From positions 1 through 45,768 of the forward strand of contig JAJYSV010000034.1 of the NCBI GenBank assembly GCA_021793405.1: DNA of 45,768 nt. The letters are read 5' to 3'. The translations under genes were made by a program, and so were the position numbers. Origin of the DNA: Acidobacteriota bacterium (GTDB lineage Bacteria > Acidobacteriota > Terriglobia > Terriglobales > Acidobacteriaceae). Shown piece by piece: positions 14,922 through 27,082 of this stretch. Numbering within the stretch: position 1 is the stretch's first letter; each line of letters starts with the position of its first letter. The notes below the pieces were generated by a model that was not told the origin of the DNA, did no database searches, and saw only the letters and a list, made by a program, of their open reading frames with translations.

Positions 14922-14950
14922 TTAGCTTGCCTCGCGGTCCGTGCTATACA
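14922..14950 (+). promoter_or_regulatory. Possible internal promoter for the slipin gene
   Basis: TTAGCT (14922-14927) and TATACA (14945-14950) are separated by 17 bases, upstream of the slipin start in the only sizeable gap of this gene run. The -35 match is poor, so this is tentative. Confidence 0.3.
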
Positions 14951-14988
14951 ACCTAAGGCGAGTGTTCCATACGTCTGGAGAGTTGAAC

Positions 14989-15771
14989 ATGCCATCCACA
15001 GCAGTCCTGGTCGTCATCATCATCGTGGCCTTCTATCTATTCAGTTCCATCAAAATTTTGAAGGAGTATGAGCGCGGTGTGATTTTTCGTTTGGGCCGTC
15101 TGCTCAGTTCTCCGAAGGGGCCAGGGATTGTTCTCGTCTTCCGGCCATTCGATCAGATCGTGCGCATTTCCTTGCGGCAGGAGGCAATGGAGGTCCCGGC
15201 GCAGGACATCATCACCCGCGATAACGTCACGCTAAAAGTGAATGCCGTGATCACGCTTCGCGTGATTGATGCCGCGAAGGCCGTGGTGGAGGTGTCGAAC
15301 TACGTGTATCAGACTTCGCAGTTTGCGCAAACAACGCTGCGATCGGTATTGGGCGAGGTTGAACTGGATGAGTTGCTGGCCCATCGCGAGAAATTGAATT
15401 TGAAGATCCAGACCATCATCGACCAGCACACGTCACCTTACGGATTGAAAGTCGTCAGCGTCGAAGTGAAGCAGGTGGACTTGCCGGAATCCATGTTGCG
15501 CGCCATGGCCCGCCAGGCCGAAGCGGAACGCGAAAAGCGCGCAAAGATCATCAACGCGGAAGGCGAGTTCAACGCCGCGCAGCGCCTGGTGGAAGCGGCG
15601 ACGCTGCTGGCGCAGCAGCCGATTACCATGCAGTTGCGCTACCTGCAAACCTTGAGCGAGATTGGCGCGGAGAAAAATACCACCATCGTATTCCCGCTGC
15701 CATTGGAACTGGTCTCGCTCCTGAAGCAAGTTGGCCAAACCATCCAATCGAAATCTGGCGGAGATGTATAA
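14989..15771 (+). CDS. Slipin (SPFH/band 7, stomatin-like protein)
   Basis: About 260 residues from ATG 14989, with GGAG 8 bases upstream. One N-terminal membrane helix (residues 4-20) is followed by the SPFH domain: [32 protein letters not shown] and [13 protein letters not shown] Glu/Ala/Arg-rich coiled coil ([20 protein letters not shown], about 182-201) precedes the C-terminal hydrophobic segment. Such proteins oligomerise at the inner membrane into microdomains. It is paired with the NfeD protease upstream, and the SPOR gene follows after 2 bases. Confidence 0.93.
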
Positions 15772-15773
15772 CG

Positions 15774-16445
15774 ATGACAGCCTTGTGCGATCAAGATCTC
15801 GACGTTCACGATTCAGTGGAAGTGCACTGGAGTACCAGCACGATCCTGGCCATTTTCTTTGCCGCCTCACTGATCTCCGCCGTGTTTTTTGGCTTGGGAT
15901 ATTCATTCGGCGGAGTAGGTGCCTCGAAGCATCCCGTTGCCATCGCCTCGGCGGAAACAACCGGCAACTCGACAGGATCGGCCGCGATGCAAATGCCGTC
16001 GAACCGCCCTGCTGCGTTCAGCGAGTCTGCCGTGGGCGCGGGTGGCGCTGGGAATGTTGGCACACAACCTAGACAGCGCACTCCATCGACTGTATCCGCA
16101 CAAGCCCATTCCGCAGCCGCTGCACGAACGACCCACCCGGCTGGTATGGTCGCTCGTCAACATTCGACACCCGCCCCTTCTGTCGCGCACGCAAAAACAA
16201 TAGCGAGCGGAGCGAGTGGGCCGCGCGTCATGGTGCAGGTGGGTGCGATCGGCAATCGCAAAGACGCGGAAAGGCTGGTGGCTGAACTGCGAAAGAAGGG
16301 CTTCCACGCCGGAATCTATTCGGAGAAACACGACAAGTTCCTACACGTGCAGATCGGCCCCTATAAAGATGTTCAGCAAGCGCAGTCCAAGCGCCATCAG
16401 GTAATGGCGAGCGGTTTCCACGCCATTCTGAAGAGTACATCCTAG
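15774..16445 (+). CDS. SPOR-domain inner-membrane protein
   Basis: This 223-residue protein has a short cytoplasmic N-terminus, one membrane helix (about 24-47), a long Ser/Ala/Pro-rich linker (50-145) and a C-terminal SPOR domain (about 148-220): VMVQVGAIGNRKDAERLVAE, LRKKGFHAGIY and VQIGPYKDVQQAQ. SPOR domains bind peptidoglycan strands lacking stem peptides, usually at the division site. The architecture matches FtsN- or DedD-like proteins, though length and context do not allow a firm name. It starts 2 bases after the slipin stop, so it is almost certainly cotranscribed. Confidence 0.88.
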   Translation: MTALCDQDLDVHDSVEVHWSTSTILAIFFAASLISAVFFGLGYSFGGVGASKHPVAIASAETTGNSTGSAAMQMPSNRPAAFSESAVGAGGAGNVGTQPRQRTPSTVSAQAHSAAAARTTHPAGMVARQHSTPAPSVAHAKTIASGASGPRVMVQVGAIGNRKDAERLVAELRKKGFHAGIYSEKHDKFLHVQIGPYKDVQQAQSKRHQVMASGFHAILKSTS

Positions 16446-16480: not shown

Positions 16481-17191
16481 TCAACCGCGCATCCATTCCG
16501 GCAACCCGGAGGCAATCGATTCCCGCACGGCGAAGATCAATTCCTCCCGCGTCGCGAAATCCGCGGCCCGGATGGCTGGATGAAAATGTACATGGGCGAC
16601 GCCTGGAAAGATCCGCAGACTTCCTTTTCGCATCATGGTTTCTGTGCCATGAATCGATACGGGAACAATGGGTGCGCCGGTTTGCTGCGCTAGATAAAAG
16701 GGACCCTTTTTAAAAGGAAGAAGTTTCCCCGTATGCGAGCGAGTTCCTTCTGGGAAGGCAGTGAGATGCACGCCGGACGCGAGGACCTTCGCGGCGTTGT
16801 CAATACTTTCTTTCGCATCTTCTCGGTTGCCCCGGCGTTCTACCGGAACAAAATCAGCCATTCTCATGGCGATGCCGAGGAAAGGAATTCTCATCAGTGT
16901 TTTTTTTAGGAAAACAGCAGAGCGGCCTGGGATCAGCGGCATCAACATTGGCGGGTCCAGGTTGGACACATGATTCGCCATAAAGATGCATGCTACGCCC
17001 CGCGGAATATTTTCATAACCTTCAACCCGGACGCGAATCCCTCCCATGCGCAGGCCGGACGCGGCGATCCACATGGAAAAGCGATAGAGAAACGTCACGT
17101 CTCCTGTTATCCATGTCCACGGAAAACCCAGTAGCGCGCCGATTGGAACGAGGATTACGTAGTAGAGAAGGATTGTTATTGCGGAAATCAT
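16481..17191 (-). CDS. plsC: 1-acyl-sn-glycerol-3-phosphate acyltransferase (PlsC family)
   Basis: About 236 residues from ATG 17191, chosen because ATGA overlaps the mpl stop and the longer frame is antisense-like. A hydrophobic N-terminus (residues 3-25) anchors it to the membrane. The acyltransferase signature H74-x4-D79 appears in NHVSNLDPP and the second motif in FPEGTRS (about 146-152), with ADFVPVERRG between them. It would acylate lysophosphatidate to phosphatidate in phospholipid synthesis. It is the last gene of the minus-strand run with mpl, ldcA, dapF, purN and purM. Confidence 0.9.
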   Translation of the reverse strand: MISAITILLYYVILVPIGALLGFPWTWITGDVTFLYRFSMWIAASGLRMGGIRVRVEGYENIPRGVACIFMANHVSNLDPPMLMPLIPGRSAVFLKKTLMRIPFLGIAMRMADFVPVERRGNREDAKESIDNAAKVLASGVHLTAFPEGTRSHTGKLLPFKKGPFYLAQQTGAPIVPVSIHGTETMMRKGSLRIFPGVAHVHFHPAIRAADFATREELIFAVRESIASGLPEWMRG

Positions 17192-18657
17192 GCGCGTCCG
17201 GGATCGTTGCGAAGAGACACTGGAAGTTTTTGATAAATTCCATCGAAGCCGCCGTTGGAGAGAATCGCGACGACGTCTCCGGATCGCAGATGGGTCGTTA
17301 GATGGTCGACGATTGCAGTGACATCGGGTAACTGTCGCGCTTGGCATCCACGAACCTGCAGAGCCTGCACGATATGTTCCGGGTGAAGGATTTGCTCTGC
17401 TGGGATATTCATAGCCTGGTAGACGGCGGCAAGAATGACCTGATCCGCCAGGGAAAGACTTTCAGTCAGCTCCTGCTCAAAAACATTGCGGCGCAGCGTG
17501 TTCGAGCGCGGTTCTACGACTGCCCACAGGCGCGATCCCGGATATCGCAGACGCAACGCGCGCAGCGTTTCGCGAATCGCCGTGGGATGATGCGCGAAGT
17601 CATCGATGATCGTGATGCCATCGATTTCGGCAATCACTTCCAGGCGGCGTTTGACGCTGCGAAAGGATTGCAATGCCGTTTGAATGTCCTCGGCGGGAAC
17701 ACCCTGGCCCGCGGCAAGAGCGGCAGCCGCAGTCGCGTTCAGCACATTATGCTCGCCGATCATGGGCATCTCCACCCGCAACCATGGCTGCCCGTTCCGC
17801 TCAATACGCCATCTGCTGGAGTTGCCATGGATGGCAAGATCCGCGATGCGCCAGGTGGAATCCTGCGAAAATCCATAGCGCTCCACCGGACAAAAAGCGC
17901 CCGCTACGCACTCCGTCACATTTTTCGATCCGTCAAAGGCGACGATGCGTCCCCGTCGAGGGACAAGATTGACCAGGCGTTTGAACGCCGTCTTCACGGA
18001 TTCCAGGTCCGCGTAGATATCCGCGTGATCAAATTCAACATGCGTAAGGATCAACGCGTCCGGGAAATAATGCATGAATTTTGGTCCCTTGTCGAAGAAA
18101 GCTGTGTCGTACTCGTCGCCCTCCAGAATAAAAGGCCTTGTCTGGCGCAGCGCAAAGCTGGATCCAAAATTTTCCGCAATCCCACCGATTAAGAACGAGG
18201 GAGCCAGCGCGGCATTCGTCACTGCGGCGGTTTCGTAGATCCATGCCAGCATGCTGGTAGTTGTGGTTTTGCCGTGCGTACCGGCGATCACCAAAGATTC
18301 TCGTTCGACAAGAAATTCTTCGTGAATCACCTGCGCCAGAGAGCGGAAAGGAATGCGCTGGTCCAAGACAAATTCCAGTTCGGGATTGCCACGCGAAATC
18401 GCATTCCCGACGATAACAAGATCAGGACGCGGTTGCAGATTCTCTTCGGAAAACGGCTGTGCAATTGCAATACGGAGTTGCGCCAGCAGATCGGACATGG
18501 GCGGATATGCAGCCTTGTCCGAGCCGGTCACATGCCATCCGCGCAACTGCAACATGCCAGCCAGGGAGGCCATGGCGCTGCCGCAGATCCCGATCAGGTG
18601 GACGTGCCGGGCCGGAGACTCCTCACCATTTCTCGCTCCATGTTGGACTTCGCTCAT
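17188..18657 (-). CDS. mpl: UDP-MurNAc:tripeptide ligase Mpl (murein recycling)
   Basis: About 489 residues. A Mur-ligase N-terminal domain opens with HLIGICGSAMASLAGML, the form typical of Mpl and MurC. The central ATP-binding domain has GTHGKTTTTSM (about 126-136), and IGEHNVLNATAA and DDFAHHPTAI follow. Mpl joins recycled L-Ala-gamma-D-Glu-meso-DAP to UDP-MurNAc. A MurC assignment is less likely because an LD-carboxypeptidase, which makes the recycled tripeptide, is directly upstream. Start: ATG 18657 has AAGGA at good spacing; ATG 18663 would give the 4-base overlap with ldcA but has no spacer. Confidence 0.88.
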   Translation of the reverse strand: MSEVQHGARNGEESPARHVHLIGICGSAMASLAGMLQLRGWHVTGSDKAAYPPMSDLLAQLRIAIAQPFSEENLQPRPDLVIVGNAISRGNPELEFVLDQRIPFRSLAQVIHEEFLVERESLVIAGTHGKTTTTSMLAWIYETAAVTNAALAPSFLIGGIAENFGSSFALRQTRPFILEGDEYDTAFFDKGPKFMHYFPDALILTHVEFDHADIYADLESVKTAFKRLVNLVPRRGRIVAFDGSKNVTECVAGAFCPVERYGFSQDSTWRIADLAIHGNSSRWRIERNGQPWLRVEMPMIGEHNVLNATAAAALAAGQGVPAEDIQTALQSFRSVKRRLEVIAEIDGITIIDDFAHHPTAIRETLRALRLRYPGSRLWAVVEPRSNTLRRNVFEQELTESLSLADQVILAAVYQAMNIPAEQILHPEHIVQALQVRGCQARQLPDVTAIVDHLTTHLRSGDVVAILSNGGFDGIYQKLPVSLRNDPGRA

Positions 18658-18659
18658 CC

Positions 18660-19634
18660 TCATCCTTCGTTGCAGGTGACCGACGGCTGGAATTGCAGGG
18701 TGGGCGTACCGGTCAGATCCAATTCGCAAGAGACGCCAATCGGCAGCGTGATGTTGCGTTCGCGAACGTGCCCGGACCGCAGGCCAATGCCAACCGGCCC
18801 GGGGAAGTCCGCCAATACGCGCAACAAGACTGAATCCAGCAATTCATCGGTAGTGCCCGGCTGTACGCAGTCCAACATCGGGCCAAAGACGATACCGCGC
18901 ACCCGATCGAGCTTGCCCGCCAAACGCAACTGGAACAACATCCGGTCAATCTGATAGGGCTTGACGCCCACATCTTCGAGAAACAGAATTGTGTCTTCTG
19001 TTTGGATTTCATATGGCGTGCCCAGCGACGCGACCAGCATGGAAAGACATCCGCCATAAAACTTTCCTTCTGCGTGGCCGGATTTTAACGTCCGCATATC
19101 CGCTTCGGACCGGAGTTGCCACGGGTGATTCTGCGAGAGCGCCGCCTGCCAGCTGGCCAGGTCAACACCATTTTCCCGTGCAAAATCTCCGGCAGCCATC
19201 GGCCCATGCCACACCACCAAACCTGTCGCGTCGTTCAGCCACGTCAGCAGACTGGTGATATCGCTGCATCCTACAAAGATCTTTGGATTGCGTCGGATAA
19301 GTTCCAAGTCAAGTCCGGTCAGTAACTCGGCCGATCCGTAACCGCCGCGGCTACAAATGATCGCTTGGACAGAAGTGTCCGCAAAGGCGTCATGTAAATC
19401 TTGCAGACGCTGTGCCGCGGTTCCAGCGGAGTATTGTCCATACCGGGCCAGTGCATGAGAAGACAGCTGCGGCTGGAAACCTAACGCCCGCAATGCATCC
19501 ATCCCCATCTGCACTTTGGCCGGATCGAACCAACTGGCTGGCGAAACCAGCCGCAGAGTATTGCCGGTTCCCAGGGCCGCAGGAAGAACGGCAGGCTTCA
19601 AAGTTCCGCCTGGGGTTGTTGAGCGCGCGGTCAT
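18660..19634 (-). CDS. ldcA: LD-carboxypeptidase (peptidase S66, LdcA-like)
   Basis: About 324 residues from ATG 19634, whose ATGA overlaps the dapF stop. The S66 signatures are clear: CSRGGYGSAELL, then GCSDITSLL with the probable nucleophile S124, FLEDVGVKPYQIDRML with the Glu, and GLRSGHVRERNITLPIG with the His. The enzyme removes the terminal D-Ala from recycled murein tetrapeptides in the cytoplasm, giving the tripeptide that the next gene product (Mpl) ligates. No signal peptide is present. Confidence 0.92.
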   Translation of the reverse strand: MTARSTTPGGTLKPAVLPAALGTGNTLRLVSPASWFDPAKVQMGMDALRALGFQPQLSSHALARYGQYSAGTAAQRLQDLHDAFADTSVQAIICSRGGYGSAELLTGLDLELIRRNPKIFVGCSDITSLLTWLNDATGLVVWHGPMAAGDFARENGVDLASWQAALSQNHPWQLRSEADMRTLKSGHAEGKFYGGCLSMLVASLGTPYEIQTEDTILFLEDVGVKPYQIDRMLFQLRLAGKLDRVRGIVFGPMLDCVQPGTTDELLDSVLLRVLADFPGPVGIGLRSGHVRERNITLPIGVSCELDLTGTPTLQFQPSVTCNEG

Positions 19635-20434
19635 ACGAGCAGGCAATTCCCTTGGGCTATGATTTCCGCCGGTCCTGTCAGCAGCAGGTTCGAGCTCTTC
19701 CGCATCCATTCCACCGTTTGTTCGCCACCCTCAGCGACTACTGTGAGCTGTCGCGCAACGCCTCGCATTTCGATACTCGCGGCGGCGGATGCGGAAGAGC
19801 CGGTGCCGGAAGACAGCGTCGGCCCCACGCCGCGCTCATAAATACGGAACTCGATCCTATTTGTATCCATTACACGCACAAATTCAACGTTGGTGCCCTT
19901 GGGGAAGTCCGGGTGGACACAAACTTCCGACCCAATCTGCTGCCACGAACGTCCGAAGCATCCAAAATTGGGCGAGTCAACAAAAACGACGAAATGCGGA
20001 TTCCCAATCGATACATTGACTCCCGCGATGGATGTTCCGTCCTTAAGCATAACCGTTTGCGCCGTGACAGATGGAACCCCCATCTCGGTGGAAATGAGGT
20101 ACTGCGGAGGATTACGCCGCAGAATGCGGCAGCGGCGCACACCTGCATGCGTGCGAATGGAAAATTCGTTGGCATCATCCTCTTGCGCCAGATATGCAGC
20201 CACGCAGCGCGTGCCATTTCCGGAGATTTCCGACTCCGAGCCATCCGCATTGAAGAGCCGAATCGAATACGCGCCGTTGTCGGCGAGCGTCAGATACTCG
20301 ACGCCGTCCGCGCCAACTCCTGTGTTGCGTGCGCAAACGATGCGAGCTATGTCAGCATAGCGGCTTGCATCGAGAGGTTCATCCACGATGAGAAAATCAT
20401 TCCCGCAGGCGTGCGCTTTGACGAACCGGATCAC
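19631..20434 (-). CDS. dapF: Diaminopimelate epimerase family protein with both catalytic Cys replaced by Ser
   Basis: This 267-residue protein aligns along the whole DapF length: KAHACGNDFLIVD at the start, NTGVGADGVEYL, FNADGSESEISGNGTRC, SIGNPHFVVFVD, GTNVEFVRV, and ERGVGPTLSSGTGSS near the end. DapF inverts LL-DAP to meso-DAP with two Cys acting as acid and base, in the family motifs CGNG and CGTG. Here those positions are S71 (SGNG) and S209 (SGTG), while the substrate-binding Asn and Glu/Arg residues are kept. The frame is intact. It overlaps purN (upstream) and ldcA (downstream) by 4 bases each. It could be a Ser-based or altered epimerase, a related isomerase, or inactive. Confidence 0.85.
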   Translation of the reverse strand: MIRFVKAHACGNDFLIVDEPLDASRYADIARIVCARNTGVGADGVEYLTLADNGAYSIRLFNADGSESEISGNGTRCVAAYLAQEDDANEFSIRTHAGVRRCRILRRNPPQYLISTEMGVPSVTAQTVMLKDGTSIAGVNVSIGNPHFVVFVDSPNFGCFGRSWQQIGSEVCVHPDFPKGTNVEFVRVMDTNRIEFRIYERGVGPTLSSGTGSSASAAASIEMRGVARQLTVVAEGGEQTVEWMRKSSNLLLTGPAEIIAQGNCLLV

Positions 20435-21069
20435 TTGATTTCCTCGAGCAGGGATGCGCTGCGCAATGCACGGGCAACATATCGGCGATCTGCAATCGTG
20501 TAATTTCCGCTGAGAACGCGGGCAATGGCTTCCGGGTAGGCAAGGTGTTCCTGTTCCAGAATCCGCGCGGACAACCTCACTTCGTCGTCGCCATCCAACA
20601 CTGGGACTGCGCGCTGCAATACGATGACTCCGTGGTCCAGTTGGTCATCCACGAAATGCACGGTGCAGCCGGTGATGCCGACCCCGTACTGGAGCGCCTG
20701 ACGCTGTGCGTCGAGGCCCGGAAATGCCGGCAAAAGCGACGGGTGAATATTCAAAATGGCATGAGGATAGGCCGCGACAAATTCGGGCGACAGCAGGCGC
20801 ATGTATCCGGCGAGGCAGATCAATTCGACGCCGTGTTGGCGCAGACAAGCGATGATTTCTGCATCCTGCTCGGCGCGCTTCCGTCCGCGGGCTTCAATCA
20901 CCGCGGTCGCCAAGCCACGCGCCCTGGCTGCGGCAAGGCCCGGCGCTTCCGCGCGATTGGAAATGACAATGGAAATTCTTGCGTTGGCGATCTGGCCGCG
21001 ATCAATGGCGTCAGCAATCGCCAGAAAGTTGGAACCACGACCCGAAAGAAGAATGCCAAGACGCGTCAT
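20431..21069 (-). CDS. purN: Phosphoribosylglycinamide formyltransferase PurN
   Basis: This 212-residue enzyme transfers formyl from 10-formyl-THF to GAR in purine synthesis. The family motifs are clear: LGILLSGRGSNFLAI at the N-terminus and ICLAGYMRLL. The catalytic Asn-His pair N106/H108 lies in LNIHPSLLPAFPG, and GCTVHFVDDQLDHG contains the catalytic Asp. Length is normal. It starts 6 bases after the purM stop and its end overlaps dapF by 4 bases. Confidence 0.95.
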   Translation of the reverse strand: MTRLGILLSGRGSNFLAIADAIDRGQIANARISIVISNRAEAPGLAAARARGLATAVIEARGRKRAEQDAEIIACLRQHGVELICLAGYMRLLSPEFVAAYPHAILNIHPSLLPAFPGLDAQRQALQYGVGITGCTVHFVDDQLDHGVIVLQRAVPVLDGDDEVRLSARILEQEHLAYPEAIARVLSGNYTIADRRYVARALRSASLLEEIK

Positions 21070-21075
21070 GGGGAG

Positions 21076-22134
21076 TTAGTTATACAGGACCCGGCGATCG
21101 CCTTTGATAATCTTGCCAATCACTGCGTGAGGCTCGTTCGCGCGGTCTAACAGTGTTTTGACGCGCTTGTATTTTTCAACCGGGACGGCGCAGATCAAAC
21201 CTATTCCCATGTTAAAAGTCCGCAACATTTCCACCAGTTCCACATTGCCCAGCGCTTGCAGGTGGTCAAAAATTGGCAGCACCGGCCAGGAACCCAATTC
21301 GACGCATGCGGAAACATGTTTCGGCAGGATGCGGGGCAGATTTTCGGTGATGCCTCCGCCGGTAATGTGGGCCATTCCCACGACCAGGTCTGCCGCAGTC
21401 AGTTTGCGAATAATGTTGAGATAGCTGCGATGCGTTTTCATCAAGGCCACGCCGGCCTTATCGCGTAGCTCATTGACATATTGGTCCGGGGTGTATTTGG
21501 CCACCTGAAAAAACAGCTTGCGAGCCAGCGAAAAGCCGTTGGTATGCAATCCAGTGGAAGGCAGGCCGATTAGCAAGTCGCCTGCGCGGATGCCGGCCCC
21601 GGTAATGATTTTTTCGCGCTCCGCGACGCCCACGATAAATCCGGCAAGATCGTATTCGCCATCATGATAAAACCCCGGCATCTGCGCGGTTTCTCCCCCA
21701 ATGAGGGCACAGCCATTGGCGCGGCAGGCATCTGCCATGCCGGAAACCACTTTTTCCGCCACGTCGCCGTCCAGTTTGCTTGCCGCCAGGTAATCCATAA
21801 AAAACAGAGGCGAGGCTGCCTGCACAGCAATGTCATTCACGCAATGGTTCACCAGGTCCGCACCGATGGTGTGGTGCATGTTCATCTGGAACGCAATCTT
21901 CAGCTTCGTTCCAACGCCGTCGGCACTGGAAACCAGCACAGGATTTTTGTAGCGCGTCGTATCCAGTTTGAACAGGCCGCCGAATCCGCCAATCTCGCTG
22001 AGCACCTGCTTGTTGAAGGTCCGCTGGGCCAAATACTTTATGCGCTGCTTGGTGCGGTCGCCGCTGGAGATGTCCACGCCTGCATCGGCGTATGTGATGG
22101 CGGGAGTTGGCTTCGATGAAGACTTACTGGGCAC
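21076..22134 (-). CDS. purM: Phosphoribosylformylglycinamidine cyclo-ligase PurM (AIR synthase)
   Basis: This 352-residue enzyme closes the imidazole ring of AIR with ATP. Signatures include YADAGVDISSGDR, SSADGVGTKLKIA, GADLVNHCVNDIAVQ, LIGGETAQMPGFY and GLPSTGLHTNGFS. The start codon is GTG at 22134 with no obvious Shine-Dalgarno. It is the first gene of the minus-strand run purM-purN-dapF-ldcA-mpl-plsC, so the promoter should lie in the 309-base gap to hemL. Confidence 0.96.
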   Translation of the reverse strand: MPSKSSSKPTPAITYADAGVDISSGDRTKQRIKYLAQRTFNKQVLSEIGGFGGLFKLDTTRYKNPVLVSSADGVGTKLKIAFQMNMHHTIGADLVNHCVNDIAVQAASPLFFMDYLAASKLDGDVAEKVVSGMADACRANGCALIGGETAQMPGFYHDGEYDLAGFIVGVAEREKIITGAGIRAGDLLIGLPSTGLHTNGFSLARKLFFQVAKYTPDQYVNELRDKAGVALMKTHRSYLNIIRKLTAADLVVGMAHITGGGITENLPRILPKHVSACVELGSWPVLPIFDHLQALGNVELVEMLRTFNMGIGLICAVPVEKYKRVKTLLDRANEPHAVIGKIIKGDRRVLYN

Positions 22135-24270: not shown

Positions 24271-25086
24271 CTACACCCACGCTTCCGGCGTGACAAACTC
24301 GCAGACTTCGCCGCGCTGCGCGAATTCATTTCTCCAGGTTGTGATCAGGCGGTCGGTTGCGGCAATCGTATGGCTGCGATTCTGTCCCAGGCCAGCCTGC
24401 CCGCCATCGTGCAGTAGCGCGTTTGTCGCAAATCCTCGCCGAATATTTTTGCGAAAACTGCGCAGGATATTCCGCGCGACGGCATCCGGCGTGGTCGGCT
24501 TCCAATCGTAGCCCATTGCATTCCACAGGACGGGCATCAGTCCCAGTTCGCGAGCCGTGCGCAGGACATCCGGCCTTCGTCCGCCGTGCGGTGGGCGAAA
24601 CCAGCGGACAGGCGTGCCCAGCGCATCCTCCAGCGCCGCATTGCAGTCGCGCAACTGCTGCCGGACGATATTCGGCGGTCGAATCAATAGCAGCGGATGC
24701 GTCATGGTGTGGTTGCCGATCAGATGCCCGGCGGCGGCCACGGCACGGGCAATCTCCGGTCGCTGGCGAACAAAGCGGCCAATCATGAAGAAAGTTGCGC
24801 GAACTTCGTGCCTGGCCAGCACTTCCAGCAGGCGAAACGTGTCCGGATCGTTGGGACCGTCATCGTACGTCAGGGCAATTTGCGTGGGTCGTTTCGCAGC
24901 CACCACGCAGTGTCCGAAGATCTGCGACGTGGGCCACATTCCCGCGTACGCGTAGGCTCCTGCGGCGAGTACGCCCGCCGCTACAGCCGCCGCTGCAATT
25001 GCACCGGCGCTGGGAGATGTGCCCAGGTTGGCGGCCAAAAGCGGCGTTTCGTCGGACGCGATGGAGAAGATTCGAGCGGGTGCCAT
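24271..25086 (-). CDS. Polysaccharide deacetylase (NodB homology domain)
   Basis: About 271 residues from ATG 25086; a GTG at 25143 would extend it. An Ala-rich hydrophobic segment (about 28-52) should anchor or export it. The NodB domain follows with all core motifs: ALTYDDGPN (metal-binding Asp pair), GNHTMTHPLL (H-x4-H), RPPHGGRRPD and LLHDGG with the catalytic His. Such enzymes de-N-acetylate or deacetylate peptidoglycan or exopolysaccharide; the substrate is not deducible here. It stands alone on the minus strand, divergent from the truncated kinase. Confidence 0.88.
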   Translation of the reverse strand: MAPARIFSIASDETPLLAANLGTSPSAGAIAAAAVAAGVLAAGAYAYAGMWPTSQIFGHCVVAAKRPTQIALTYDDGPNDPDTFRLLEVLARHEVRATFFMIGRFVRQRPEIARAVAAAGHLIGNHTMTHPLLLIRPPNIVRQQLRDCNAALEDALGTPVRWFRPPHGGRRPDVLRTARELGLMPVLWNAMGYDWKPTTPDAVARNILRSFRKNIRRGFATNALLHDGGQAGLGQNRSHTIAATDRLITTWRNEFAQRGEVCEFVTPEAWV

Positions 25087-25213
25087 CGCGTTTGAGTGTA
25101 ACGGAATCGGCGAGAGGAGGGTACCCACCGAGTATCGCACCACCCCTTGCAGAGGCCATTGCCGCGTGATGGTCTTCGTGTTTCATTCGCTTTTACTACG
25201 AGAGGAATTCGCC

Positions 25214-25768
25214 ATGGCAAAACTATTCGAAAATCCACGCTCGATCGCGATTGAGGGGCCGATTCGCGCCGGCAAATCCACCCTGGCCACGCTGCTGGCC
25301 CAGGAAATCGGCGCCGCCCGCATTGTCGAGCCGCAGCAGAATCCCTTTCTTCCGCAGTTTTATCGCGGCGAGAGAAGCGCCGCTTTTCCGGCACAAATGT
25401 GGTTCCTGATGCCTCTCTCTCCGCAACTCTCGCGCATCAAGGTGTCAACAGAGCCAGATCGACTCAGCGCCTGGGCTCTCTGCAGGAATTTTAGGCGAGC
25501 GCAGGATCGCCTTCTGATGTCTCTCCCTCGTCCCCCCCCGACGGCAACTAAATTTCACCGCATATCCGATTTCGGAGATGCGGAACCGCAGTCGAGCAAT
25601 ATGTCTAAAACAGATCCGGAATCGTGTGGAAGGCGATGCGCGTCGGCGCAGCGGCGCGCGCCAGGTGCATGCTGGCAAAGTAGAGCGTCTCCGTCCCGTA
25701 CTTGTGATTCAATTGGTCCATCGTCGCGGCCAGTTGGTCGCGGCTGGCTTCGCGATCGAGCGTGCTGA
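25214..25768 (+). pseudogene. Deoxynucleoside kinase, truncated after its N-terminal third
   Basis: From ATG 25214 (AGAGGAA just upstream) the first 65 or so residues match deoxynucleoside kinases: SIAIEGPIRAGKSTLATLLA is the P-loop, followed by EPQQNPFLPQFYRGER and AAFPAQMWFL. Homology stops near 25420. The frame stays open to 25768 but reads unrelated sequence, the last 160 bases antisense to the Y-family polymerase gene. The family is normally just over 200 residues with a later Arg-rich lid region that is missing, so the product is probably inactive. A deletion removing the kinase C-terminus is the simplest explanation. Confidence 0.65.
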
Positions 25769-26921
25769 ATAGGCTCAGCGTATGCAGCGCATCCGGCACC
25801 AGGTCGATCAGCGTCACGCTCACCAGAAATGGCTTTTCGTACATCGCACCCACCGGACGCATCGACCACAATTTTCGCAGGCCTTCAATCAGCGTCTGTG
25901 AATCCTGGCATTCCACCAGGCGCAACTGCTCTCCCCACGCACGCTGGGGAATTCCTGACCCGTGTTTTCCGCTCGCAGCATGGTTCGGCACGGTGAATCG
26001 CAAGGAAAGCGCGATGCCCGCGGCCCACAGTTTTTGCGTCCGCAGTCGCATCGCCGCTTTATGCAGCAATTTGTGCGCAATGGCATATGCGCCTTCGGGG
26101 GTGCGAAATTCCGGCGGCAGAACATGCTGGTGCCCGATGGACTTTGCATGTTCCAACTCGGCATCGTGGAAGTCCTTTCCGCGCAGCCAATGCCACAGCC
26201 GTTCGCCCTGCACTCCGCCCCACGCCTGTCCCAGCTGCTCCGGCGTCAGCGCCAGCAGGTCCGCCATGCTTTGCACGCCGTGTGCGTTCAGACGCCGCTC
26301 CATGCGTTTGCCAATCCCAACCATGTCGCGCAATGCGAGTCGCACCAATGCATGCGGCAGCAAATCCTGGGTTAGTGCGATCAGGCCGTCCGGCTTTTCC
26401 ATGTCGGAGGCGATCTTGGCCAGGTAGCGATTTGGCGCCAGACCAATGGAGCATCGCAACGTACTTCCCACGTGCTCTCGAATCGTTGCCTTGATGCGTC
26501 GAGCTAGGTCCATCGCCGCCAGCAGCGGTTGCTCGCGTCCCATCAGCTCGCAGGCCATCTCGTCGATCGAGCGCACGGAAGATACCGGAACGCAGCTTTC
26601 CACTGCTTCCACCACGCGCCGATGATAGTCGACGTACAGTTCATGGCGCGCCTCGACCAGCACTAGGTCCGGACACATGCGCTTGGCCTCGCCCACCTGC
26701 GTTCCCGTCTTCACGCCGTACGCCTTCGCCTCGTAACTGGCTGCAATGCAGCAGGTGGTATCCGCCATCAACGGCACCACCGCCACAGGCCGATTGCGCA
26801 GAGCGGGTTCTTTCTCCTGTTCCACGGAGGCAAAATAGGAATTCAGATCGAGAAAGAGCCAGCGCACGCGCGGCGCCGTGGAACCACGGCGTGGTTCCTC
26901 CGAATTCTGGTCGGAAAGCAT
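25605..26921 (-). CDS. dinB: Y-family DNA polymerase (DinB/Pol IV-like)
   Basis: About 438 residues from ATG 26921. The palm motifs are complete: WLFLDLNSYFASVEQ with the metal Asp D25, and SVRSIDEMACEL with D120/E121. Also seen are the fingers segment SYEAKAYGVKTG, SIGLAPNRYLAKIASDMEKP, and helix-hairpin-helix MVGIGKRMERRLNAHGV. The C-terminal 200 residues diverge from classical Pol IV and lack a recognisable beta-clamp motif. The role would be lesion bypass. No LexA box or imuA partner was recognised nearby; the upstream region has other repeats. Confidence 0.88.
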   Translation of the reverse strand: MLSDQNSEEPRRGSTAPRVRWLFLDLNSYFASVEQEKEPALRNRPVAVVPLMADTTCCIAASYEAKAYGVKTGTQVGEAKRMCPDLVLVEARHELYVDYHRRVVEAVESCVPVSSVRSIDEMACELMGREQPLLAAMDLARRIKATIREHVGSTLRCSIGLAPNRYLAKIASDMEKPDGLIALTQDLLPHALVRLALRDMVGIGKRMERRLNAHGVQSMADLLALTPEQLGQAWGGVQGERLWHWLRGKDFHDAELEHAKSIGHQHVLPPEFRTPEGAYAIAHKLLHKAAMRLRTQKLWAAGIALSLRFTVPNHAASGKHGSGIPQRAWGEQLRLVECQDSQTLIEGLRKLWSMRPVGAMYEKPFLVSVTLIDLVPDALHTLSLFSTLDREASRDQLAATMDQLNHKYGTETLYFASMHLARAAAPTRIAFHTIPDLF

Positions 26922-27082
26922 GAGAAACTTCGCTAATCCTTCGCCTTCATTGTGCGCCTGAAATTGACAGCAGCGCAAACTCCTCCGGCGCAATCTCTTC
27001 CGCGGGGGAAATCCTCCCCATCCTCCGATTTTTCAAACAGATGAAGGCTTTTCCACAAACGATGCCTTAGATTCTTTTTTTG

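Follow-up and report, generated by a model that had tools for sequence, protein, structure and literature searches.

A DapF homologue with serine at both catalytic cysteine positions in Acidobacteriota

The window, by which we mean the whole stretch of 45,768 nucleotides analysed from an Acidobacteriota bacterium of the family Acidobacteriaceae, contains a homologue of the diaminopimelate (DAP) epimerase gene dapF in the gene order purM-purN-dapF homologue-ldcA-mpl-plsC-like (Table 1). The purN stop and the GTG start of the dapF homologue overlap by four bases. An earlier sequence-only reading of this DNA had placed the dapF homologue between purN and ldcA-mpl, and the profile matches of the neighbouring genes bear this out.

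Table 1. Genes and codons of the window, with the matches on which their names rest
Feature	Position in window	Strand	Evidence and remarks
SPFH/Band 7 gene	14941-15771	+	Adjoins the SPOR-domain gene; close to the murein genes
SPOR-domain gene	15774-16445	+	Adjoins the SPFH/Band 7 gene; close to the murein genes
plsC-like gene, 1-acylglycerol-3-phosphate acyltransferase	16481..17347	-	TIGR00530, 106.7 bits (cut-off 102.95)
mpl, ligase for the recycled L-Ala-gamma-D-Glu-meso-DAP tripeptide	17188..18729	-	TIGR01081, 415.3 bits (cut-off 388.7)
ldcA-like gene, LD-carboxypeptidase (S66)	18660..19709	-	PF02016, 119 bits, and PF17676, 110.9 bits; PRK11253.1, 144.7 bits, below its cut-off of 378; coordinates are those of the longest ORF, and the real start is possibly more internal
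dapF homologue (Ser/Ser)	19631..20434	-	GTG start, 267 aa, intact; TIGR00652, 209.4 bits (cut-off 114.65); PF01678, 160.7 bits (cut-off 34.7)
Codon of Ser209 (SGTG, in SSGTGSS), place of the second catalytic Cys	19808..19810	-	TCC; alignment to solved DapFs
Codon of Ser71 (SGNG, in SGNGTRC), place of the first catalytic Cys	20222..20224	-	TCC; alignment to solved DapFs
purN	20431..21069	-	TIGR00639, 211 bits (cut-off 150.1)
purM	21076..22134	-	TIGR00878, 382.8 bits (cut-off 236.35)
Polysaccharide deacetylase gene	24271-25143	-	
Y-family DNA polymerase gene	25605-26993	-	Marginal DUF4113 match

The same reading had described an intact frame with serine, encoded by TCC, in both active-site motifs, and the bases, read on the minus strand, confirm each of these points. 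The window protein aligns almost end to end with solved DapFs, and Ser71 and Ser209 lie opposite their catalytic Cys residues. The Cys pair in CGNG/CGTG, which is among the criteria for DapF membership, is absent from the window protein. A congener's protein with 80% identity (L004) has Ser/Ser in the same two columns. Since this protein and all other loci read from the family are Ser/Ser, a sequencing error or chance mutant is very unlikely, and we rejected this explanation; none of the close relatives read has a Cys at these sites, the occurrence that had been named earlier as the sign of a random mutant. A further difference from ordinary DapF is Ser208, often found in place of the Ala before the second site (171/192). 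Three Ser/Ser proteins of one bacterial family (L116, L122 and L282 of f20) have SSGTC for SSGTG, with a Cys three residues past the second Ser.

The homologue was found in 93 of 100 genomes of the own family (own genome included). All 69 family homologues that were read, from 68 of the 92 other genomes, are Ser/Ser, including both copies in the one genome with two (G063), and the same was true for eight more family genomes read later. Three overlapping copies of the window's own locus were kept out of the 69. Across the phylum, a DapF match was present in 193 of 198 genomes, 21 of which belong to the own family. Outside the family, one gene was read from each of 90 genomes of the phylum, a non-random sample of 30 best-scoring genomes and 60 chosen to cover other families; 60 were Ser/Ser, 28 Cys/Cys and 2 Cys/Ser. 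Among the best 80 of at least 580 confirmed named loci, a selection biased toward close relatives, we counted 75 Ser/Ser, 4 Cys/Cys (WOR-1 and Bacillota) and 1 incomplete gene. Named Ser/Ser carriers were labelled Acidobacteria, Acidobacteriaceae, Terriglobia, Bryobacterales, Aminicenantes or similar, with two exceptions, one labelled just 'bacterium' and one an Acidimicrobiia MAG. The locus labelled Acidimicrobiia (L220, VFZH01000105.1) carries an Acidobacteriota-like Ser/Ser dapF, possibly through mis-binning or transfer.

Altogether, 240 rows were aligned, a number that is not a species count because some genomes occur both in the genome set and among the named loci. They comprise 205 Ser/Ser, 32 Cys/Cys, 2 Cys/Ser and no Ser/Cys proteins, and one row cut at its start, with Ser at the second site (L196). 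The loci read from outside the Acidobacteriota were the 4 named ones and 6 from plasmids. This alignment across family and phylum supports the earlier proposal of a coordinated double change and indicates that Ser/Ser is a deep clade trait. The two Cys/Ser proteins, in which only the second site is Ser (L107 from G105 and L114 from G119), branch together beside a Cys/Cys protein and are possibly half-way forms; no LysA, DapD or Ddh match was found in either genome. A plasmid gene annotated as dapF (L319, Sphingomonas morindae plasmid p1) aligns with CGSA at the first site, which gives Cys, and with GSGSCSC at the second, which gives Ser, although the alignment there may be shifted.

The codons, together with the presence of Ser or Cys and no other residue at either site in 239 full-length rows, point to selection for Ser. 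In 191 Ser/Ser genes, Ser at site 71 is encoded by TCN in 166 and by AGC in 25, and at site 209 by TCN in 189 and by AGC in 2. On the FastTree tree, the minimum number of TCN/AGY switches that explains this distribution is 9 at site 71 and 2 at site 209; a few of them may be separate origins from Cys instead. Two base changes separate TCN from AGC, so Ser was kept across the switches.

The evolutionary history was assessed on a careful tree of 74 rows, built without the two catalytic columns. The main Ser/Ser set falls on one branch (support 99/98, in a tree whose bootstrap is unsettled), adjoining ordinary Cys/Cys DapFs of Bacillota, Bacteroidota, Pseudomonadota, Actinomycetota and WOR-1. An earlier careful tree of 85 rows supported the main Ser/Ser set at just 12/95, and in a quick tree this set was interspersed with four Cys/Cys rows. 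Cys/Cys DapFs from other Acidobacteriota form a separate type, mostly with GVPH for GNPH, and within this type the 74-row tree places two Ser/Ser proteins of another family (f3). A single clade of all Ser/Ser rows was rejected (AU p 0.0036), and so was joining the main set and f3 (p 0.015, for a group picked after the tree had been seen). The topology thus suggests a second Ser/Ser origin in f3, with the reservation that counts of changes cannot separate gain from loss. The ordinary Cys/Cys group also includes the f22 and L270 proteins, which are Ser/Ser; a third origin is hinted at by this best tree, but joining these proteins to the main clade was not rejected (AU p 0.31), and we did not retain it.

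Apart from the two sites, the window protein is a DapF by both curated cut-offs (Table 1). It scored 84.2 bits, below the cut-off of 350, against the model for bifunctional DapF/glutamate racemase (window protein listed as P0002), and was unmatched by the HisR model, which matched 1 of 51 Ser/Ser proteins (E 1.2e-4). The proline racemase model PF05544 was also unmatched in a Pfam scan (E up to 1), which returned PF01678 and one chance match. An AlphaFold2 model (pLDDT 96.7, 51 sequences) has the two-domain DapF fold, with Ser71 directly before helix 72-86 and Ser209 directly before helix 210-224. Ligand-bound DapFs head its structure matches (9mro, Z 35.3, rmsd 2.0/256; 3ejx, Z 34.7, rmsd 2.1/259).

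Changing any of eight residues to Ala is reported to nearly abolish the activity of C. glutamicum DapF (PMC5296763). The eight were placed on the window protein by motif rather than by aligning that sequence: six, together with both catalytic positions, are offset by 12, and Asn15 and Asn159 were located via the GND and GNP motifs. The counterparts obtained in this way are Asn12, Asn62, Asn73, Asn145, Asn182, Glu200, Arg201 and Thr211. Among the 205 Ser/Ser proteins, Asn62, Asn182 and Arg201 are present in all, Glu200 in 204 (1 unknown letter), Asn12 in 203 (2 gaps), and Asn73 and Asn145 in 203 each; 173 have Thr at position 211, and 32 have Ser there. Residues that contact both ends of DAP are, by motif, kept in Ser/Ser proteins.

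The own genome is 100% complete and encodes a single PF01678 protein; a second DapF, for which the sequence-only reading had suggested looking, was searched for, and none lay above threshold. Genes lysC (aspartokinase), dapB, dapA and dapD are contiguous, LysA is matched at 483 bits, Mpl is encoded within the window, and MurE has TSDNPR, containing the DNPR motif that we take to mark a MurE of the meso-DAP type. Something in this genome must make meso-DAP. The searches for pathway enzymes covered aspartokinase, DapA, DapB, DapD, DapF, LysA, Ddh, DapL, MurE and Mpl. Ddh was unmatched in the own genome, and DapL was absent at E 1e-100; the best TIGR03540 match was rejected as DapL, being an alanine transaminase by its best model. 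The window dapF homologue is the only family candidate for meso-DAP formation in the own genome.

A panel of 63 genomes, 44 of them Ser/Ser, was examined in the same respect. Among these 44, Ddh was over the cut-off in none and DapL in 1, LysA was over its cut-off in 31 (two with in-frame stops reported), a DapD domain in 27, and LysA together with DapD in 23. A Ddh bypass was rejected, as Ddh has no match in the own genome and was over the cut-off in 1 of the 63 panel genomes, which is Cys/Cys. DapL was over the cut-off in 4 of the 63, including the 1 Ser/Ser genome. The pathway argument is good for about half of the 44 Ser/Ser genomes, because 13 of them are without LysA above the cut-off and 17 without a DapD domain. 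DNPR was present at the MurE locus in 25 of 26 genomes tried, and in 20 of 21 Ser/Ser ones (six-frame scan), lying within the MurE frame in 19. A search of the open-licence literature gave no confirmation of meso-DAP in the Acidobacteria wall.

Gene neighbourhood is less uniform than the sequence-only reading implied when it placed the gene in a murein-recycling operon. Among the 80 named loci, dapF has ldcA as a neighbour in 40 and mpl in 38, so that the ldcA-mpl linkage stands in part, whereas purM and purN adjoin it in none. A recycling-operon setting is not general, because the Ser/Ser genes of Bryobacterales and Aminicenantes have other neighbours and do not lie beside ldcA-mpl. A dap operon around the Ser/Ser gene was not found in the named loci with eight neighbour queries. 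In these loci, lysA and an aminotransferase occurred near dapF solely in Cys/Cys loci of other phyla; in one genome (G265), lysA adjoins a Cys/Cys dapF.

More than one DapF match was found in 15 of the 193 phylum genomes. On renewed search of 11 of these, a Ser/Ser protein and a divergent Cys/Cys relative were found together in 5 (G241 and four of f22) and the Cys/Cys relative alone in five; the matches of G214 were unaligned. As 5 genomes hold both types, replacement is the rule, not absolute. The divergent f22 proteins (L300-L303, L293-L295 and L297) are DapF-like, with FCSNGS or FCSNGT and CCGTG, and score below the family cut-off; such a protein is the only DapF-like one in several f22 genomes and accompanies the Ser/Ser copy in four. 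The second, divergent Cys/Cys DapF-like protein of G241 (L299) has YEACVE for ERG and one in-frame TGA reported in the stretch matched. A wider search of 395 genomes of the phylum found PF01678 in 387. Nine family genomes had additional PF01678 stretches, which were rejected as further DapFs because they are weak (21 to 24 bits; cut-off 34.7), and the true DapFs of those nine genomes are Ser/Ser (G098 already counted). Two of the nine stretches were identified, both as proline racemases (PF05544 above 330 bits). These two proteins have MCGH and SPCGTG, the ordinary Cys/Cys pair, so there is no general loss of Cys pairs in those two genomes.

The sequence-only reading had offered three options, namely a Ser-based epimerase, altered substrate use or a DAP-binding protein. 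Genome context and the retained DAP contacts favour the first, and we consider it probable that the window protein is a functional DAP epimerase in which two serines form the acid-base pair; that the serines are catalytic, and that the protein epimerises at all, are what we infer. Ser71 and Ser209 would act as a two-base pair, each at the N-terminus of an active-site helix, where the helix dipole together with backbone NH groups would stabilise a base of alkoxide character. Glu200, Arg201, Asn12, Asn62, Asn73, Asn145, Asn182 and Thr211 would hold DAP as in ordinary DapF. The absence of an obvious new base is a weakness of this reading: none of the columns distinguishing Ser/Ser from Cys/Cys proteins evidently supplies a compensating base. 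Its strongest precedent is the natural Ser/Cys hydroxyproline epimerase discussed below.

The alternative that survives best is that the protein no longer epimerises, and instead binds DAP or DAP peptides or carries out a one-sided reaction (elimination or exchange), with meso-DAP coming from an unrelated enzyme, for example a PLP-dependent or broad-specificity racemase. Such an enzyme has to be considered because engineered single Cys-to-Ser replacements leave related enzymes almost inactive: PddB mutants of this kind are reported to retain < 0.1% activity, with a like result cited for M. tuberculosis DapF (PMC8225329), and the activity of HisR mutants is greatly reduced (PMC11602996). These mutants are the strongest argument against a Ser/Ser epimerase. 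Proximity to the murein-peptide genes ldcA and mpl in part of the phylum, and the Cys/Cys relative alongside the Ser/Ser copy in the 4 f22 genomes, would also fit a non-epimerase. However, a binding protein should tolerate Ala, Thr or Gly, which are absent from both sites in the full-length rows; the contacts to both DAP ends are kept, the own genome is without another DapF and without a Ddh match, and the Bryobacterales and Aminicenantes genes lie away from ldcA-mpl. We regard this alternative as unlikely.

Much less probable still is an epimerase of the same fold and pocket acting on another substrate, such as another diamino acid or DAP within a muropeptide. DapF relatives have switched substrates, for example HisR (PMC11602996) and PddB (PMC8225329), and the O-ureidoserine racemase 7vdy, which has another substrate, ties with the best structure matches (Z 34.4). 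Yet the DAP contacts are unchanged, 51 of 51 Ser/Ser proteins tried match the DapF equivalog model while other racemase models are weak, and the own DAP pathway would then be without an epimerase.

Likewise very improbable is an epimerase whose base is Cys34, Cys77, bound water or a metal, with the serines serving to position it: Cys34 and Cys77 are common in Ser/Ser proteins (201 and 192 of 205, at least one of them in all 205), but they are not replacements, because Cys/Cys proteins have them too (31 and 32 of 32), neither is invariant, and in the model Cys77 is internal to helix 72-86 and Cys34 is the last residue of helix 23-34, whereas the base would act at helix starts. A moved thiol was rejected for the same reason, as there is no invariant Cys column and the two commonest also occur in Cys/Cys proteins.

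With a Ser/Ser epimerase as the preferred reading, a wider proposition follows, to which we give an even chance: Acidobacteriota would hold a natural, phylum-scale DAP epimerase in which Ser/Ser performs two-base racemisation at an unactivated alpha-carbon, reached at least twice from Cys/Cys ancestors, and which would be immune to shut-off both by a disulfide joining its catalytic residues and by thiol reagents directed at these residues. One conceivable benefit, drawn from analogy, would be freedom from the disulfide reported to inactivate C. glutamicum DapF. Aminicenantes are mostly regarded as anaerobes, and disulfide avoidance is for this reason unlikely to be the sole cause.

DapF is a textbook case of a Cys thiolate that removes a proton of very high pKa from an amino acid, and DapF inhibitors have been pursued as antibacterials. 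The presence of Ser/Ser in most of the bacteria read from the phylum suggests that serines can take on a role for which Cys was considered necessary. Either Ser/Ser proteins do DapF chemistry, or a major phylum relies on an as yet unrecognised enzyme for an essential step in making lysine and murein. Annotation can hide the loss of the Cys pair, as the standard equivalog model matches every Ser/Ser protein tried.

Compared with known DapFs (TIGR00652, PF01678), the window protein shares length, fold, DAP contacts and sequence family, and DAP pathway genes lie elsewhere in its genome; it differs in having Ser for both catalytic Cys. The engineered DapFs C73S and C217S (2q9h and 2q9j, presumably from H. 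influenzae) have the same fold and Ser at one of the two positions, but are man-made single mutants, whereas in the present proteins both serines are natural and fixed over large clades. No paper title on a natural Ser/Ser DapF was found in the open-licence literature. C. glutamicum DapF shares the DAP-contact residues by motif; its catalytic Cys pair is reported to form an inactivating disulfide, which a Ser/Ser enzyme could not (PMC5296763). Natural serines with an assigned function are reported in the proline racemase superfamily, which has a similar fold, in the 4-hydroxyproline epimerase B9JQV3 (Ser93/Cys236) and the trans-3-hydroxyproline dehydratase B9K4G4 (Ser90/Thr256) (PMC4113996). 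These belong to another family with other substrates and have Ser at the first catalytic site only; the paper ties their Ser to an Asn three residues on, whereas in the window protein an Asn (Asn73) lies two residues on. EcL-DER, a cofactor-independent racemase of the Asp/Glu racemase family with Thr/Cys, has also lost one catalytic Cys naturally, but in another family and at one site, and its reaction is described as one-way (PMC8142540). Ser/Ser DapF is a variant of a known family, in which the Cys pair is missing and the other defining features tested are present.
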